DNA of 64,000 nucleotides from Candidatus Thalassarchaeaceae archaeon. GTDB taxonomy: Archaea > Thermoplasmatota > Poseidoniia > Poseidoniales > Thalassarchaeaceae. Both the position numbers and the translations under genes were made by a program. A model generated the notes under the pieces. That model was given only the letters and a program-made list of their open reading frames with translations, was not told where the DNA came from and did no database searches. The stretch spans positions 1-64,000 of the forward strand of contig JAPYUP010000001.1 in NCBI GenBank assembly GCA_029940695.1, written 5' to 3'. Below, piece by piece: positions 27,908 through 35,047 of the stretch. Numbering within the stretch: position 1 is the first letter of the stretch; each line of letters begins with the position of its first letter.

Positions 27908-29071
27908 GTGCGCTTAGGAGTACTGAAGGAGCCTGATGCTGAGCGCAGAGTCTCCATCGTCCCTAATTCCGTCAAAAAGTTACTCAATCTCGGGTTCGAA
28001 GTCATTGTTGAACGTACAGCTGGTGCCCTAGCTCACCATGATGATTCGGAGTACGAGGAAGCAGGGGCTATGTTATCAGACCATTCATCAGCAATTTCTG
28101 CCGACATAGTGGTTTCCATTTCTATGCCGGATGTTACTTCCATGGACGACGGGCAGATGCTGGCTTGCATAGTGGACCCATTTCGTCATCCTAGAAGGGT
28201 CAAGGACGCCGTTGATGCAGGAATTACATTGTTCAGTATGGACATGATACCACGAAGACTGTCCCGTGCTCAGACGATGGATGTCAACTCAAGCCAAGAT
28301 AACCTAGCCGGATACAAGGCCGTGCTTCTTGGTGCGGCACACATGCCAAGGGGAATCCCTATGATGACCACCAGCGCAGGTACCGTCCGTCCTGCCAAGT
28401 TCGTCGTAATGGGCTCAGGCGTAGCGGGATTACAGGCCATTTCCACCGCCAAGAGACTTGGTGCCATCGTATATGCCTCTGACGTGCGTAAGTCAGCCGC
28501 CGAGCAGATCGAATCTGTAGGAGGCCGATTCATTGAGGTAGAGGGCATGGATGACTTCGAGGACGAGTCTGGATACGCCAAGCCCTTGACACCCGAGTTT
28601 ATTCAGAAGGTCAATGATACTGTTTGTGAGGTCGCGCGTGACGCTGACGTAATGATTACCACTGCTAGGATATTCGGCCGGCCAGCTCCTATCACTGTCC
28701 CTGCAAGCGCCGTTTCTACCTTCAAGCCCGGGTCAGTCATCGTCGACATGAACGCTGATGTTGGCGGTAATTGCGAATTGACCCGTCCGGGGGAGGTGAT
28801 GACAACCAACAACGGGGTCACCATCATCGGGATCACCAATTTACCTGGTGAGCTTTCTGCTACAGCGAGTATGTTGTACTCCAACAACATGACAAACTTC
28901 CTCACTACACTTGTGAGGGATGACTCACTAGTACTTGACCAGGGAGACGATGTATTAGTTGGCGCTCCTGAGGGTGATGAGTTGCACGTTCCCGGAATGG
29001 GTGGCGTGCTTCTGTGCAGTGGCGGCGAGATTCACCCAAAACAGTCTAGATTGGCAGAGGTGGTCAACTGA
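27908..29071 (+). CDS. pntAA: NAD(P) transhydrogenase subunit alpha, part 1
   Basis: NAD(H)-binding domain I of the proton-translocating transhydrogenase. The GTG at 27908 begins MRLGVLKEPDAERRVSIVP, the typical start of the family (Arg residues of the NAD domain). MGSGVAGLQAISTAKRLGAIVYASDVR is the cofactor-binding loop and the C-terminal segment is the linker before membrane domains. Length (387) is usual for the split alpha subunit. The operon continues with pntAB (overlap) and pntB (no gap). Moves hydride from NADH to NADP+ using the proton gradient. Confidence 0.94.
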   Translation: MRLGVLKEPDAERRVSIVPNSVKKLLNLGFEVIVERTAGALAHHDDSEYEEAGAMLSDHSSAISADIVVSISMPDVTSMDDGQMLACIVDPFRHPRRVKDAVDAGITLFSMDMIPRRLSRAQTMDVNSSQDNLAGYKAVLLGAAHMPRGIPMMTTSAGTVRPAKFVVMGSGVAGLQAISTAKRLGAIVYASDVRKSAAEQIESVGGRFIEVEGMDDFEDESGYAKPLTPEFIQKVNDTVCEVARDADVMITTARIFGRPAPITVPASAVSTFKPGSVIVDMNADVGGNCELTRPGEVMTTNNGVTIIGITNLPGELSATASMLYSNNMTNFLTTLVRDDSLVLDQGDDVLVGAPEGDELHVPGMGGVLLCSGGEIHPKQSRLAEVVN

Positions 29072-29388
29072 GTCTCACCGTCGCTGCTCTTGTTGGCAGC
29101 ATCACAGTCTTCATTCTGGCAATTTTCCTTGGCTTCGAGCTTATCAGCAAAGTTCCACCTACTCTCCATACACCTTTGATGTCCGGTGCTAACGCAATAT
29201 CTGGCATCACCATTGTAGGGGCGTTAATCCTCTCTAACACTGCATTCAACTCCGGTAATCCAGGACCTGCCGCCTGGTTGGCATTCATTGCCTTGGTAAT
29301 GGCCACTATCAATGTAGTTGGAGGCTTCATGGTCACCAACAAGATGCTGGAGATGATAGCGGGCAAAAGGCGTAAGGGTCGTGAGTGA
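29068..29388 (+). CDS. pntAB: NAD(P) transhydrogenase subunit alpha, part 2 (membrane)
   Basis: Three-helix membrane domain of the split alpha subunit. The conserved N-terminus (ALVGSITVFILAIFLGFELISKVPPTLHTPLMSGANAISGI) is fully present upstream of the first usual start (TTG at 29176), which would cut off the first helix. No ATG, GTG or TTG occurs in that frame between a stop at 29047 and 29176, so the only sensible start is CTG at 29068. It overlaps the pntAA stop as CTGA, like the common ATGA overlap. Length with this start is 106, normal for the family. Confidence 0.88.
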   Translation: MSLTVAALVGSITVFILAIFLGFELISKVPPTLHTPLMSGANAISGITIVGALILSNTAFNSGNPGPAAWLAFIALVMATINVVGGFMVTNKMLEMIAGKRRKGRE

Positions 29389-30816
29389 ATGATAAACACA
29401 GCCGTCTGGGATATAGGCTACCTATTCGCTGCAGCCCTTTTCATCTTCGGGATTAAGCAGTTGTCTAGCCCCAAGACTGCCCCTAGAGGAAACAGGCTAG
29501 GTGCGCTGGGGATGTTACTTGCAATACTGGTTACCCTGTCGAGAATGTACACAGAGGGGATAATCGGATGGGAACTGATTGTTGCAGGGTTGGCCATTGG
29601 GATACTAATTGGCGCTTTGATGGCCACAAAGGTCGAGATGACTGGAATGCCCGAGCTGGTTGCTCTGTTCAACGGCTTTGGTGGGGGAGCATCAGCCCTA
29701 GTCGCCCTTTCCGAGGTTCTGGATAGGATACAGGATGGTAACATCCCTGAACCCGGAGTTGAGTTATATGCAGTATGGTTGGCGATTGGACTTTCCGGAC
29801 TAGTTGGCTGGATGACTCTGACAGGTTCTCTTGTAGCTATGATGAAGCTCAAGGGTGGCTTCGAGATGCCATTCTCCAGAAAGTGGATTAGATTCCCCAC
29901 TTGGGGCCCACAATGGCTCAACGGCGTAAAGATTATTCTGTTGATTTCTTCTTTCGCCCTGATTTGGATGACGATCAATGAACCAGCCAACAAGGACTAC
30001 ATTTGGGGCATTGTGGCCATGTCCAGCCTTTTGGGAATTCTCTTTGTTATCCCAATTGGAGGTGCTGATATGCCAGTAGTCGTTAGTTTGCTGAACTCAC
30101 TTTCAGGAATTGCAGCAGCATTCACTGGGTTCGTGATTGGAAACAACGTGCTAATCATCGCTGGATCAATGGTCGGCGCTGCAGGACTCATTCTCACTTT
30201 CATCATGTGCAAGGCAATGAACAGAACATTACCAGACGTATTGTTCAAGTCGTTCGGTGGCACTGCAGACAAGGCTCAACTCTCGCGAACTAAGATTGGC
30301 AGCGATCCTATTGAGGTCGCTATGGTCTGTGACGGAATCACTAGGTGTGTCGTCATCCCGGGATACGGAATGGCTGTTAGCCAAGCACAACATGCAGTGA
30401 AGGAATTCGCTGATCTCATGGAGGCTCGGGGGGTCGAGGTGATTTATGGGATTCATCCCGTTGCAGGTCGAATGCCCGGGCACATGAATGTACTACTCGC
30501 AGAGGCCAGTGTTCCTTACGAGCAGCTAATTGAAATGGAAGATGTCAACAACGACATGCCTGACATGGACGTTGCTATAGTCATCGGAGCTAATGATACT
30601 GTCAACCCAGTAGCAAGAACTGGTGAGGGACCGCTTGGTGGAATGCCCATCATCAACGCTGACGTTGCCCGCATCGTAGTCTTCATCAAACGAAGCCTAT
30701 CGGTCGGATATGCAGGTGTTGACAACGATTTATTCTACGAAGACTCAACAATGATGCTCTTTGGAGACGGTAAGAAGATGATGAACGAGTTGAATGCTGC
30801 CATCAAGGACTTGTGA
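29389..30816 (+). CDS. pntB: NAD(P) transhydrogenase subunit beta
   Basis: Proton-pumping membrane domain II and NADP(H)-binding domain III. The first two thirds (to about residue 300) are membrane helices, including GGADMPVVVSLLNSLSGIAAAFTG, the conserved pore segment. The C-terminal domain has VIPGYGMAVSQAQHAVKEF, the NADP-binding loop, then GIHPVAGRMPGHMNVLLAEA and the VGANDTVNPVAR-like block (here IGANDTVNPVAR). Length (475) is standard. The ATG starts directly after the pntAB stop, completing a three-gene operon. Supplies NADPH for biosynthesis. Confidence 0.96.
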   Translation: MINTAVWDIGYLFAAALFIFGIKQLSSPKTAPRGNRLGALGMLLAILVTLSRMYTEGIIGWELIVAGLAIGILIGALMATKVEMTGMPELVALFNGFGGGASALVALSEVLDRIQDGNIPEPGVELYAVWLAIGLSGLVGWMTLTGSLVAMMKLKGGFEMPFSRKWIRFPTWGPQWLNGVKIILLISSFALIWMTINEPANKDYIWGIVAMSSLLGILFVIPIGGADMPVVVSLLNSLSGIAAAFTGFVIGNNVLIIAGSMVGAAGLILTFIMCKAMNRTLPDVLFKSFGGTADKAQLSRTKIGSDPIEVAMVCDGITRCVVIPGYGMAVSQAQHAVKEFADLMEARGVEVIYGIHPVAGRMPGHMNVLLAEASVPYEQLIEMEDVNNDMPDMDVAIVIGANDTVNPVARTGEGPLGGMPIINADVARIVVFIKRSLSVGYAGVDNDLFYEDSTMMLFGDGKKMMNELNAAIKDL

Positions 30817-30874: not shown

Positions 30875-31897
30875 GTGCGAGTAAGAGTTAGTCGACTGGC
30901 CGTTTGCGCACTCGTTGTGCTGGCTCTCTCGATTCCATCCGTTGCTATGAGTTCCGGTCCCCCCGCTATGAACTCCAATGACGAGCTTACCGTGAAGTAC
31001 GGATGTTCTTGTCACAACAACGGAGCGCCCTCAGAACGTGCCGTAGTAATGATTACTGGGGTACCTCTGATGTATGAGCCCTCCCATGTGTATGACTTCA
31101 CAGTCACAGTTGCTGATTCCCTAACTCTCTCAGGTGGCGAAGGCAACACTGGAGCCGGGTTCCTACTCTCTTCGGACGCCAAAGGTGTATTTGCATGGGA
31201 AGAAGATCAGGACATCAAAATGACCGATGATCGACCGGACGACGTATCGCACTCTGAGACAAGCAATGATGGTATTTGGCATCTGAGTTGGACTGCCCCC
31301 AACGAAGACGTCGGTCCAGTGCAGTTTTGGTTGGCTGGGAACTCCGTTGATGCTGGAGGAATTCCCGACGATGCGGACTACTGGAACCTCCTATCATTCT
31401 CGATTATTGCACCGGACACCGTCACTACCTCTGAGTCGTCTTCAACTCTGGAGACTAGGACAATTTCTGTTGGCACCTATGACGCCCTCTTCGTTATTGA
31501 GGAGTCAGAGAGCCATCTAGAGCAGGAACGCCAGAACGCTCTGGCAGCTAGGGTATTCTCTCAAGGGAACCTCTTCTACTGGACCACCCTAGTCGCCCTC
31601 TTGGTCGGTGCCGTCGTACAGCGTGAAATTCTGGAACGCCGATATGACGAAGGTCCTGAATTCCTAGCAAGCGAGCTAGCGTATCCTCAAGGGATTCGCA
31701 GGAGCCTCGTTGCCTCCCTCTCCTTCTACCTCGGTGTCAGTTGGTCTGCTTCAGGTCAATCCATGGAATTCCAAGGAGTGGACTTCTCTCAATTTGCCAT
31801 TGGGACGGTCTTTTTCATCAGCGCTTGGGCTGCTTACGGAGTCTATCGAACACTGATTGCTGCACGGAAAGAACCCAAGGTTCGGGACCTAATGTGA
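30875..31897 (+). CDS. Exported membrane protein with Reelin-like N-terminal domain
   Basis: GTG start at 30875, then an uncleaved-looking or cleavable signal (residues 5-25). The first mature part contains KYGCSCHNNGAPSERAVV, a CSCH motif near the start like those before choice-of-anchor/Reeler-type beta domains. The beta sandwich (about 45-190) has GAGFLLSSDAKGVF and GIWHLSWTAPNEDVGPVQFWLAGNSVD, the Reeler pattern. After a Ser/Thr-rich linker come three transmembrane helices near the C-terminus. CSCH is not CxxCH, so I do not predict covalent haem. An electron-transfer or surface sensor role is only a guess. Followed after 1 nt by the TatC-like gene. Confidence 0.7.
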   Translation: MRVRVSRLAVCALVVLALSIPSVAMSSGPPAMNSNDELTVKYGCSCHNNGAPSERAVVMITGVPLMYEPSHVYDFTVTVADSLTLSGGEGNTGAGFLLSSDAKGVFAWEEDQDIKMTDDRPDDVSHSETSNDGIWHLSWTAPNEDVGPVQFWLAGNSVDAGGIPDDADYWNLLSFSIIAPDTVTTSESSSTLETRTISVGTYDALFVIEESESHLEQERQNALAARVFSQGNLFYWTTLVALLVGAVVQREILERRYDEGPEFLASELAYPQGIRRSLVASLSFYLGVSWSASGQSMEFQGVDFSQFAIGTVFFISAWAAYGVYRTLIAARKEPKVRDLM

Positions 31898-31898
31898 C

Positions 31899-33005
31899 AT
31901 GTCTCAATTTCACATTACTGAACATACATCTCAATATTCCGTGCATCTTGCAGATATGCACAGATTGTTACGAACCTCAATCATAGCATTGGGTATATCG
32001 TGCCTATTTTGGTCGTTCTTCGTTAGCCACATCATGTCAGCATGGCTCGATCTGCTACCACTTCATACCGGCCCTGAAAACGAAAATCTCTCGATCTATG
32101 GACCATTTGACTGGATTGAGGCTAGATGGTCACTGGTGCTGGTCCTCGCATTCACTTCGGCAATGCCGCTCACGTCAATTCTAATCCAGAGGTTCTCACA
32201 CTCTGGATTGCTACCGAGTGAACGCTCATGGCTGTTCTCCGTCTTACTAATCTCCTCAATTCTCGTCCCACTACTAATTATCGCTGTCTGGGCCTTCGTA
32301 ATTCCCAAACTTATTGGATTCGTCAAAATAGCAAGTTCGCTTGATGGGGTGGGCATAAGCTATGATGCGGCTTCCGTGTTTTCTCTCGCATTGGGTGCGT
32401 CTTGGATATTGATCGTGTGGTCGTTAACCGTGGTCTCAATAGGTCTAGCTAGGCTATATGGTTTGATTGAATTCGCTGAGACTAGACTCCGATATAGAAT
32501 ATTAATTATTTCAGGGGGCACATTAGTCATTACTTTACCAGTCGAATTCGACGGACTAAGGCTTCTAATCGCAATTTGCATTACATCTTCAGCCGACGCT
32601 ATTTCACGAACAATCCCCGTTGCTCCATTGGGGCGGCGGCGCTTCGATATCACAGATATGCAAGACACCGAAGGGACCCCGATTAGAATCGCATTGCTTG
32701 ATTGTGGATGCGAGGATTCGTGTCCGAGATTCCCTCAATATTTCGAGCCCCCTGGAGTTGCTATTCCAAGATGCGATGCCCTTTGCCTAAACAAGCCCGA
32801 GCAAGACGGAATTCTTGATCTAGCCCTCCATTCGGGAATTACCCGGTTGGTTGTATCGGGATGCGATGGTACCCCCATGCCTCTGGTTTTACGGACTTCG
32901 CTGCGCACCCGCGGATGTGAGGTCAGAGGACTCAATTGGTTGGATGAAAACTCGTCTAGGGACGAGTCGTGGCGAGTCAACTCCCTCAATGACGCGCTGC
33001 TATAG
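31899..33005 (+). CDS. TatC-like translocase fused to a Cys-rich domain
   Basis: Residues 16-240 fit TatC. The N-terminal HLADMHRLLRTS matches the HLxELRxRL start, a Pro/Glu-containing loop (PFDWIEARW) precedes helix 2, FSHSGLLPSERSW resembles FxxPGLyxxER, and six helices follow to about 235. Uniquely, about 110 further residues (260-368) carry CGC-x3-C (C269, C271, C275), C292-x3-C296, then the VVSGC block (C322) and C340. This segment resembles the MvhD/hydrogenase-delta [2Fe-2S] domain (CxC, later GC). TatC export of folded proteins is therefore joined to a possible redox or metal domain. The ATG at 31956 would remove the HLADM motif. It lies 1 nt after the Reelin-like gene. Confidence 0.65.
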   Translation: MSQFHITEHTSQYSVHLADMHRLLRTSIIALGISCLFWSFFVSHIMSAWLDLLPLHTGPENENLSIYGPFDWIEARWSLVLVLAFTSAMPLTSILIQRFSHSGLLPSERSWLFSVLLISSILVPLLIIAVWAFVIPKLIGFVKIASSLDGVGISYDAASVFSLALGASWILIVWSLTVVSIGLARLYGLIEFAETRLRYRILIISGGTLVITLPVEFDGLRLLIAICITSSADAISRTIPVAPLGRRRFDITDMQDTEGTPIRIALLDCGCEDSCPRFPQYFEPPGVAIPRCDALCLNKPEQDGILDLALHSGITRLVVSGCDGTPMPLVLRTSLRTRGCEVRGLNWLDENSSRDESWRVNSLNDALL

Positions 33006-33026: not shown

Positions 33027-33049
33027 TCCCTTTGTCTGGCCGTTGCGCC

Positions 33050-35047
33050 GTGGATAAAACTCGGGCCCCACTTGTTGTCGTCCTCTTGATGTTGGGCACT
33101 TGGGCACAAGTCAACTCACCATTGGTAGATGATGCATTTGACCGGGAGCAATCAAATTCAGCCGATGGATACGAACTAGTCGGCCTGCAATCCGATGAGC
33201 GTTGGCTTGTACTCAGAGTGGCCTTCCCTGACAAGTCATTACCTGGAAACATCCCTCTTTCATTGTTCGAAGGGGAAACTTCAGCTCACGCTTACATCCA
33301 ACAAATGAGCGGAAATCGTTCCTCCCTCAACATCACTTTGTTCGACCAGATTTGGCAGTCTCCCCACCCAGAGTCCGAATGGGGCAAGGACACATCCGAT
33401 GAAAGGGATGTTGGGGGTGACTATGGGGGAGCATCAGATTTAGCTGCAGCAGCGATTGTTGCACTTCTCTCTGGCATTGACCTCTCTGAATGGGACCTTG
33501 ATGGAGATGGCGTGATTGACAGGCTATTGATTCTCCACTCAGGAGAAGCACAGGAACTCGGGGGCCCCTCTTCTTCAATTTGGAGCCATTATTCCCCCTT
33601 CCAAGATCCCATCGACATAGGCGACTTCTCTTTCGAGCACTACACCATGGTGTCAATCAACGGGGGATTGGGCGTATTGATTCACGAAATGCTTCATCAG
33701 ATGGGTGCAGTTGATCTATATGATGTCCACAGTGAAACACCAACTCGAAACTGGCATGGGTTAGGTGATTGGGGCGTCATGGCTAGTGGAAACTGGATTG
33801 AAGATGGCAATCTTCCATCCCTACCCTCGTCTTCGACTCTGAATCTGATCGGCGGACTGACCGGGCCTTTCATACCCAATCAAGAGATAGAAACCGACTT
33901 ACTTGTGCCAGTAACATCATTCAATGAATCCAAGACTTACACCTTGAAGCCAATTCCTCAGGGAGGGGGCCCCCTGTCAATCAAAATTGCCCCCGGGGAA
34001 TTCGTTTGGGTGACGTTTAGAGCTAATTCTGGTTTCGACAGTGGACTACCTGGCCATGGTATTCTCGTAGAGCAGCAGGACACGAACTACGGTGACATTA
34101 GTGACAACCTTGTTAACACGGATCCGGCAAAGGCTTGGGTTAAGATTGTCGAGGCTGATGGCGATGACGCACTGCTCAGGGCTAGGAACTACGGAAGCCA
34201 GGGGGATGTGTTCACTGAAGGAGGGTCGTTCGGTTCGTCCGGCCATCAAATCAGGGACAATCGGGGAAGGCTAGTAAATTGGACAATCCAGATAACCAAT
34301 GTTTCTGCATATCAGGTACAAATCCAATACACCAAGGATGAGAACACAATTGCAAGCGTTGTTACTCCTAGATCACCAATAGTGTTGCTACCCGGTGAAG
34401 TAGCCACTGCTACCGTTAGCACTCCACAAACCTGCACCTTGATTACCAACCTAACGACTGCTGAATCCATCAACATAATCCAAGTGGTCAAAGAAGAACG
34501 CCAGTATCTTGAAGTTACAATTCTTGATATTGATGCAAATGGTGTTTTTCCGGGCGACAGCGGACGTATCTCTGGAACTATGGGGTGCGAGGGACATCCA
34601 CCCTATGACCTCTCATTGGAGTGGTATTCAATTCCCCACCGCCTATCGAATCAGACGCTAGAGGTGATTGTTCCTTGGGATGAGCCATCTACCATCGCTC
34701 TATATCCAAATTCGGAAGGAATTGGTCCTAGGACATATTCCGTATCCATCGATGGAGCGGCGAACAGAATATCCAACGTTGTAAAACAAGTAAGATTTGA
34801 ACCAGGTGACGCGATTGTATTGGAAATTAACCCTTCTGGATTGCTGGAGCCAGGAATGATTGCTAAGGGAGAGGTCGTGTTCATCGACTCGAACAAGCTC
34901 GAGCAGAGGATTCCCCTCATCCTCCATGCGGAACAGGAATTTCCACTATCGGGGCCTTTGCGATGGTTGGCTGCTCCATCAAATACAATATCCCTAATTT
35001 GCTTGCTATTGGCTGCTTCTGTGGTCACTGGAAAGAAGGACGAGTGA
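33050..35047 (+). CDS. Secreted M6-like metallopeptidase
   Basis: GTG at 33050 gives a clean signal peptide (MDKTRAPLVVVLLMLGTWA). The catalytic region has LIHEMLHQMGAVDLYD (HExxH with downstream Asp), the zinc signature of M6 (immune-inhibitor-A-like) peptidases, followed by GLGDWGVMASGNW, matching the Met-turn area (D.m..G). The following 400 residues are beta-rich domains, and one hydrophobic helix near the C-terminus (TISLICLLLAASVV) anchors it in the membrane. About 665 residues in all. An extracellular protease for degrading marine protein is a fair inference. It abuts the convergent tRNA endonuclease gene, the stops being adjacent (35047/35048). Confidence 0.85.
   Translation: MDKTRAPLVVVLLMLGTWAQVNSPLVDDAFDREQSNSADGYELVGLQSDERWLVLRVAFPDKSLPGNIPLSLFEGETSAHAYIQQMSGNRSSLNITLFDQIWQSPHPESEWGKDTSDERDVGGDYGGASDLAAAAIVALLSGIDLSEWDLDGDGVIDRLLILHSGEAQELGGPSSSIWSHYSPFQDPIDIGDFSFEHYTMVSINGGLGVLIHEMLHQMGAVDLYDVHSETPTRNWHGLGDWGVMASGNWIEDGNLPSLPSSSTLNLIGGLTGPFIPNQEIETDLLVPVTSFNESKTYTLKPIPQGGGPLSIKIAPGEFVWVTFRANSGFDSGLPGHGILVEQQDTNYGDISDNLVNTDPAKAWVKIVEADGDDALLRARNYGSQGDVFTEGGSFGSSGHQIRDNRGRLVNWTIQITNVSAYQVQIQYTKDENTIASVVTPRSPIVLLPGEVATATVSTPQTCTLITNLTTAESINIIQVVKEERQYLEVTILDIDANGVFPGDSGRISGTMGCEGHPPYDLSLEWYSIPHRLSNQTLEVIVPWDEPSTIALYPNSEGIGPRTYSVSIDGAANRISNVVKQVRFEPGDAIVLEINPSGLLEPGMIAKGEVVFIDSNKLEQRIPLILHAEQEFPLSGPLRWLAAPSNTISLICLLLAASVVTGKKDE

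Follow-up and report, generated by a model that had tools for sequence, protein, structure and literature searches.

A TatC paralogue of Poseidoniales carrying a cysteine domain related to the N-terminal domain of HdrA

The Tat translocase exports folded, cofactor-bearing proteins, and the locus described here raises the question of what a conserved cysteine domain might be doing on one of its membrane subunits. The window, the 64,000 nt stretch of DNA that we analysed, comes from a Candidatus Thalassarchaeaceae archaeon of the Poseidoniales, an archaeal order abundant in the surface ocean. An intact ORF on its forward strand (31899-33005, 368 codons) encodes a protein of 368 aa and starts 1 bp past the stop of the upstream gene. 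An earlier note, made from the sequence alone, had read the product as a TatC-like translocase fused to a cysteine domain like that of MvhD. We examined both halves of this protein, here termed TatC2, together with its distribution, its neighbourhood and the other TatC of the genome (Table 1).

Table 1. Coordinates of the features discussed, given for the window unless another locus is named
Feature	Position	Strand	Basis
Putative pntA/pntB (NAD(P) transhydrogenase), conserved upstream	27908..30816	+	Synteny; identity by sequence reading
Exported 'choice-of-anchor V' protein encoded upstream of TatC2; has an invariant CxCH and hydrophobic C-terminal segments	30875..31897	+	NF041895, E=1.1e-18
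TatC2 domain, residues 1-250, six predicted membrane helices	31899..32648	+	PF00902, AlphaFold helices, Foldseek
H16 and D19, aligned with the twin-arginine-binding H12 and E15 of E. coli TatC	31944..31955	+	Alignment; PMC13323110
F99, L104 and E108, at the positions of E. coli TatC F94, L99 and E103	32193..32222	+	Alignment; PMC13323110
Cysteine tail like the HdrA N-terminal domain, predicted cytosolic	32649..32969	+	Tail profile, hhalign, Foldseek
C269 and C271, invariant CxC, proposed cluster ligands	32703..32711	+	Alignments of relatives
C296, invariant, proposed cluster ligand	32784..32786	+	Alignments of relatives
C322 of the invariant GC, proposed cluster ligand	32862..32864	+	Alignments of relatives
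M6-family metallopeptidase gene downstream of TatC2; product probably secreted, start codon uncertain	33032..35047	+	PF05547, E=2.4e-14
TatC1, the other TatC of the same genome (contig C35)	L031:1429-2187

A divergent TatC with a domain related to HdrA

The reading of residues 1-250 as TatC was confirmed by a Pfam match, by a profile match to E. coli TatC and by the predicted fold. PF00902 matched residues 16-204 with 40.8 bits (gathering cut-off 25.1, E=2.7e-10), all 16 full-length homologues likewise matched TatC (best 2.5e-20), and a profile built on 26 relatives retrieved E. coli TatC from the PDB at 5e-15. The NCBIfam TatC models gave weak matches (22.6 vs 132.7 bits for TIGR00945 and 16.6 vs 192.6 for TIGR01912), and with scores this far below the equivalog cut-offs TatC2 counts as a diverged homologue of TatC and does not qualify as an NCBIfam equivalog. 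Direct sequence searches of the PDB with the whole protein and with a profile of the tail returned no match, and profile-profile and fold comparisons were needed. In the AlphaFold model of the 368-aa protein (mean pLDDT 82, pTM 0.75), six long helices are followed by an alpha/beta domain. A Foldseek search with this model ranked TatC structures first (9e01, 9dzz, 4hts and 4b4a), with several HdrA chains below, and the match to 4b4a (TMt 0.67, probability 1.00) is consistent with the six-helix TatC fold.

The cysteine tail covers about residues 251-355 and has the pattern CxC...C...GC. The seven cysteines counted in the earlier note are present in the window species, but only four of them, C269, C271, C296 and C322, are invariant across 16 relatives, while the others vary. 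A tail that was unstructured or whose cysteines were not conserved, as the earlier note had allowed for, is not what we found: each of the four is retained in 95-97% of 68 tails, and pLDDT is about 79-89 over residues 251-350 and averages 91 in a model made separately for the tail of a relative (pTM 0.84). The second cysteine of the CxC is missing in 2/39 aligned tails; two f2 relatives (L059:1930-3243 and L060:6001-7296) have lost this residue. With dN/dS of 0.03-0.22, mostly 0.05-0.15 and near the value for the membrane part, the tail is under strong purifying selection.

The proposed kinship with MvhD did not hold up. In hhalign comparisons the tail scored 20.6 against MvhD, for which full column shuffles reach 22.8, and 46.9 (probability 94%) against the HdrA N-terminal domain, for which the maximum among 60 shuffles with the cysteine columns kept was 19.7. 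The four tail cysteines align with four cysteines present in 11/11 HdrA rows, while a match to PF02662 (FlpD) was found in none of 16 members and the CxxC...GCHxGDCH motif is absent. We also searched 243 Thermoplasmatota genomes blind with the tail profile in six frames. Outside Poseidoniales this yielded weak matches, mostly within long ORFs, and all ten of the loci fetched among them proved to be HdrA N-termini with the pattern RIGVYVCHCG...C...VVxACSPR...REHCSWVH; one fetched locus also contained an MvhD, which matched at only E=0.012. For the relative's tail model, the top five Foldseek matches were HdrA chains (probability 0.97-0.99) and HdrA accounted for seven of the top ten, although the overall rmsd was poor, the query having an additional C-terminal part. 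The window protein's own model aligned with HdrA over ~100 columns at 3.1-5.9 A.

Profile-profile comparison, the blind genome search and Foldseek thus agree that the MvhD label is to be replaced by that of the HdrA N-terminal domain, to which the tail is homologous. MvhD as the nearest relative is ruled out by a profile-profile score at shuffle level. The tail lacks the downstream FAD/thioredoxin-reductase domain of full HdrA, the protein ending at residue 368.

Two TatC paralogues with reciprocal residue loss

In the sample examined, each Poseidoniales genome has two TatC genes; the second TatC, TatC1, and the residue loss described below lie beyond what the earlier note had spotted. TatA, for which it had advised looking, is represented by one gene above the cut-off in the window's own genome.

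Structural work on E. coli TatC assigns binding of the twin-arginine motif to residues H12, E15, F94, Y100 and E103, and shows TMH5 and the TMH5-6 loop keeping TatB (or TatA) in place against TMH1 of the adjacent TatC (PMC13323110, PMC10197872). P85, E170 and P172 serve here as conservation marks, not as known functional sites. Among 26 TatC2 sequences, H12, P85 and E103 are present in all 26, position 15 is E or D in 25/26, F94 is kept in 25/26 and L99 in 24/26. The twin-arginine-binding residues E15, F94 and E103 are therefore present, the window protein having D, F and E at these positions. In the same set the features of TMH5 and the TMH5-6 loop are largely missing, E170 and P172 not being among the residues found and D211 occurring in 4/26. 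The converse applies to TatC1 (n=11): E15, P85 and F94 are missing, the residues listed do not include L99 or E103, and Q170, P172, P209, P210 and D211 occur in 11/11. In 19 ordinary TatCs from this phylum, both residue sets are largely intact.

This reciprocal loss is partly echoed in the sister order, where TatC1 of family f3 lacks the N-terminal set and TatC2 has it but still carries P172. The tree groups TatC2 of both orders apart from the rest (support 97/92), as it does TatC1 of both orders (99/95). The TatC1 of the window's genome and the ten others examined from Poseidoniales have all lost the twin-arginine-binding residues and have a rebuilt TMH2-3 loop, which makes the alignment in this loop uncertain.

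Given the reciprocal residue loss, each TatC resembles one half of a single receptor, the two complementing each other. Judging from these sequences, TatC1 and TatC2 most likely combine into a mixed TatC ring, and the redox-type tail looks to sit on its signal-binding half.

Distribution of the tail and its gene neighbourhood

The fusion of TatC with an iron-sulphur-type cysteine domain is conserved in Poseidoniales, as the earlier note had wondered: the tail was found in 48/64 genomes sampled, comprising 17/29 of family f1 and 31/35 of family f2. An assembly or gene-calling artefact is ruled out by these 48 genomes and by the dN/dS values. Within the window's own genus the tail is missing in most species, being present among the sampled ones only in the window's own genome and in G012, and it is also missing in genera g8 and g13. 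TatC2 was retained in tail-less genomes wherever it was looked for, and the loss of the tail while TatC2 is kept indicates that the tail is not essential for core function. Relocation of the tail to another gene was considered and rejected, as the tail profile had no match anywhere in the genomes listed without one.

The sister family f3 has a tail-less TatC2, and the simplest reading is that the tail was gained at the base of Poseidoniales and lost later; the sampled tree, from which g8 and g13 are absent, requires at least two changes. Family f2 has a longer TatC2 of about 430-460 aa, in which some 90 further residues form an additional C-terminal region. A conserved cysteine pair (PC...C) was also seen in the first extracellular loop of f2 TatC2 (L050:6001-7314 and other f2 loci).

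Wherever a Poseidoniales locus extends far enough, the gene order pntA-pntB-CxCH protein-TatC2-M6 peptidase is preserved whether or not the tail is present, including in a tail-less genus, while around the f3 TatC2 the pntA-pntB-CxCH-M6 neighbourhood is absent. The CSCH noted earlier in the upstream protein was upheld, with GCxCH in 98% of 101 homologues. The motif is CxCH, not the CxxCH of c-type haems, and the protein adjoins TatC2 across Poseidoniales. Twin-arginine (RR) signal peptides, sought as the earlier note had advised, did not stand out in about 35% of the genome: a strict filter found none among the window ORFs, and a comparison of RR with RK/KR in 504 kb revealed no RR enrichment, a result that is uninformative on rare substrates.

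Possible roles of the tail and comparison with known systems

The explanation that we favour, with a probability of roughly 0.45 for the whole, is that TatC2 is a half-receptor whose HdrA-type cluster-binding tail senses redox or cluster status. TatC2, as one of two diverged Poseidoniales TatC subunits, would keep the cytosolic twin-arginine docking site, while TatC1 would keep the region of TMH5 and the TMH5-6 loop that holds TatA/TatB in E. coli, such that in a mixed ring TatC2 would receive the signal and TatC1 would receive TatA. Because the HdrA-like domain follows TMH6, it is predicted to lie on the cytosolic face, on the same side as the docking site and beside it, on the topology inferred from TatC. 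Most likely C269, C271, C296 and C322 would bind an iron-sulphur cluster, and the domain could then act as a sensor of redox or cluster status that tunes signal-peptide docking or assembly of the complex. Protein export in Marine Group II archaea may in this way be tied to redox or iron-sulphur state. The TatC and HdrA homologies, the conservation, the selection, the reciprocal residue loss and the synteny were all computed here. Counting against the explanation are the losses of the tail, the lack of RR enrichment described above and the cysteine loss in two aligned tails. In addition, the HdrA N-terminal domain receives one ligand of its cluster from a second HdrA subunit (PMC9012536), and no such partner is known for the putative TatC2 cluster. 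The fullest version, in which one TatC is specialised for RR binding and the other for TatA binding, and an HdrA-related iron-sulphur sensor on the RR binder switches export by redox, we regard as doubtful.

A neighbouring idea, which we consider unlikely, is that the tail acts in quality control or much as a chaperone does, checking cofactor-bearing substrates or offering them a cluster before RR docking. Its cytosolic position after TMH6, on the docking side, would suit such a role, as would the folded, cofactor-bearing nature of Tat cargo in general, but no cluster-bearing Tat substrate was identified, the sole Rieske-domain gene in the genome resembling a cytosolic oxygenase.

Rather less credible is an electron relay, in which a cytosolic donor would reduce the tail cluster and the electrons would pass to the membrane or to the exported CxCH neighbour. 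The HdrA N-terminal domain does carry electrons in HdrA (PMC9012536), and the invariant CxCH of the neighbour, the upstream pntAB and the extra cysteine pair in the first extracellular loop of f2 are all compatible with a relay. The membrane part of TatC2, however, has neither a redox cofactor nor a conserved cysteine, and the CxCH protein and its neighbours persist where the tail is lost. Moreover, no MvhD was found in nine Poseidoniales genomes and no full HdrA in 40, which makes sensing or gating more plausible than a relay.

It is similarly improbable that TatC2 has left RR export and been recruited for the neighbouring CxCH protein or the M6 peptidase. The neighbourhood is fixed in Poseidoniales and missing beside the sister-order TatC2, E170 and P172 are lost, and RR signals are few, all of which would fit recruitment; yet the near-invariant RR-binding residues of TatC2 are hard to explain without RR ligands, and neither the CxCH protein nor the M6 peptidase has an RR signal by the filter used. 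Finally, we give little credence to cysteines that hold structural zinc or form disulphides in a domain that is merely a scaffold for subunit contacts: the loss of one cysteine in two relatives would fit, but the four-cysteine layout is the same as in the HdrA N-terminal domain, which binds an iron-sulphur cluster (PMC9012536, PMC12054007).

If the sensing half-receptor is correct, it would represent a Tat translocase into which a redox input is built. The sampled Poseidoniales lack full HdrA and MvhD yet keep one piece of this redox machinery, under selection, in an export receptor, and the way TatC residues are naturally divided between paralogues provides a direct test of which residues need to be in one subunit. 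Among open-access papers on TatC with HdrA, or on TatC in this group, we found no title or abstract that describes such a fusion.

With the TatC of E. coli (9dzz) and A. aeolicus (4hts, 4b4a), TatC2 shares the six-helix fold and the positions H12, E/D15, P85, F94, L99 and E103, but it lacks E170 and P172 of TMH5 and has a long cytosolic cysteine domain. The tail resembles the N-terminal domain of HdrA (5odc_A, 8rvu_A, 7bkd_A) in its CxC...C...(A/G)C pattern, its alpha/beta fold and its profile-profile match; unlike in HdrA, it is detached from the FAD and ferredoxin domains, is without the later REHCSW segment and is fused to a membrane protein. Its similarity to MvhD/FlpD (PF02662) is remote and lies around C...GC, one MvhD reaching the E value given above, and the tail differs in having CxC where MvhD/FlpD has CxxC, in lacking GCHxGDCH and in a profile comparison at shuffle level. 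Other two-TatC systems include TatCo and TatCt of haloarchaea, where there is likewise more than one TatC per genome; what would set the Poseidoniales pair apart from these is complementary residue loss together with a redox-type tail.
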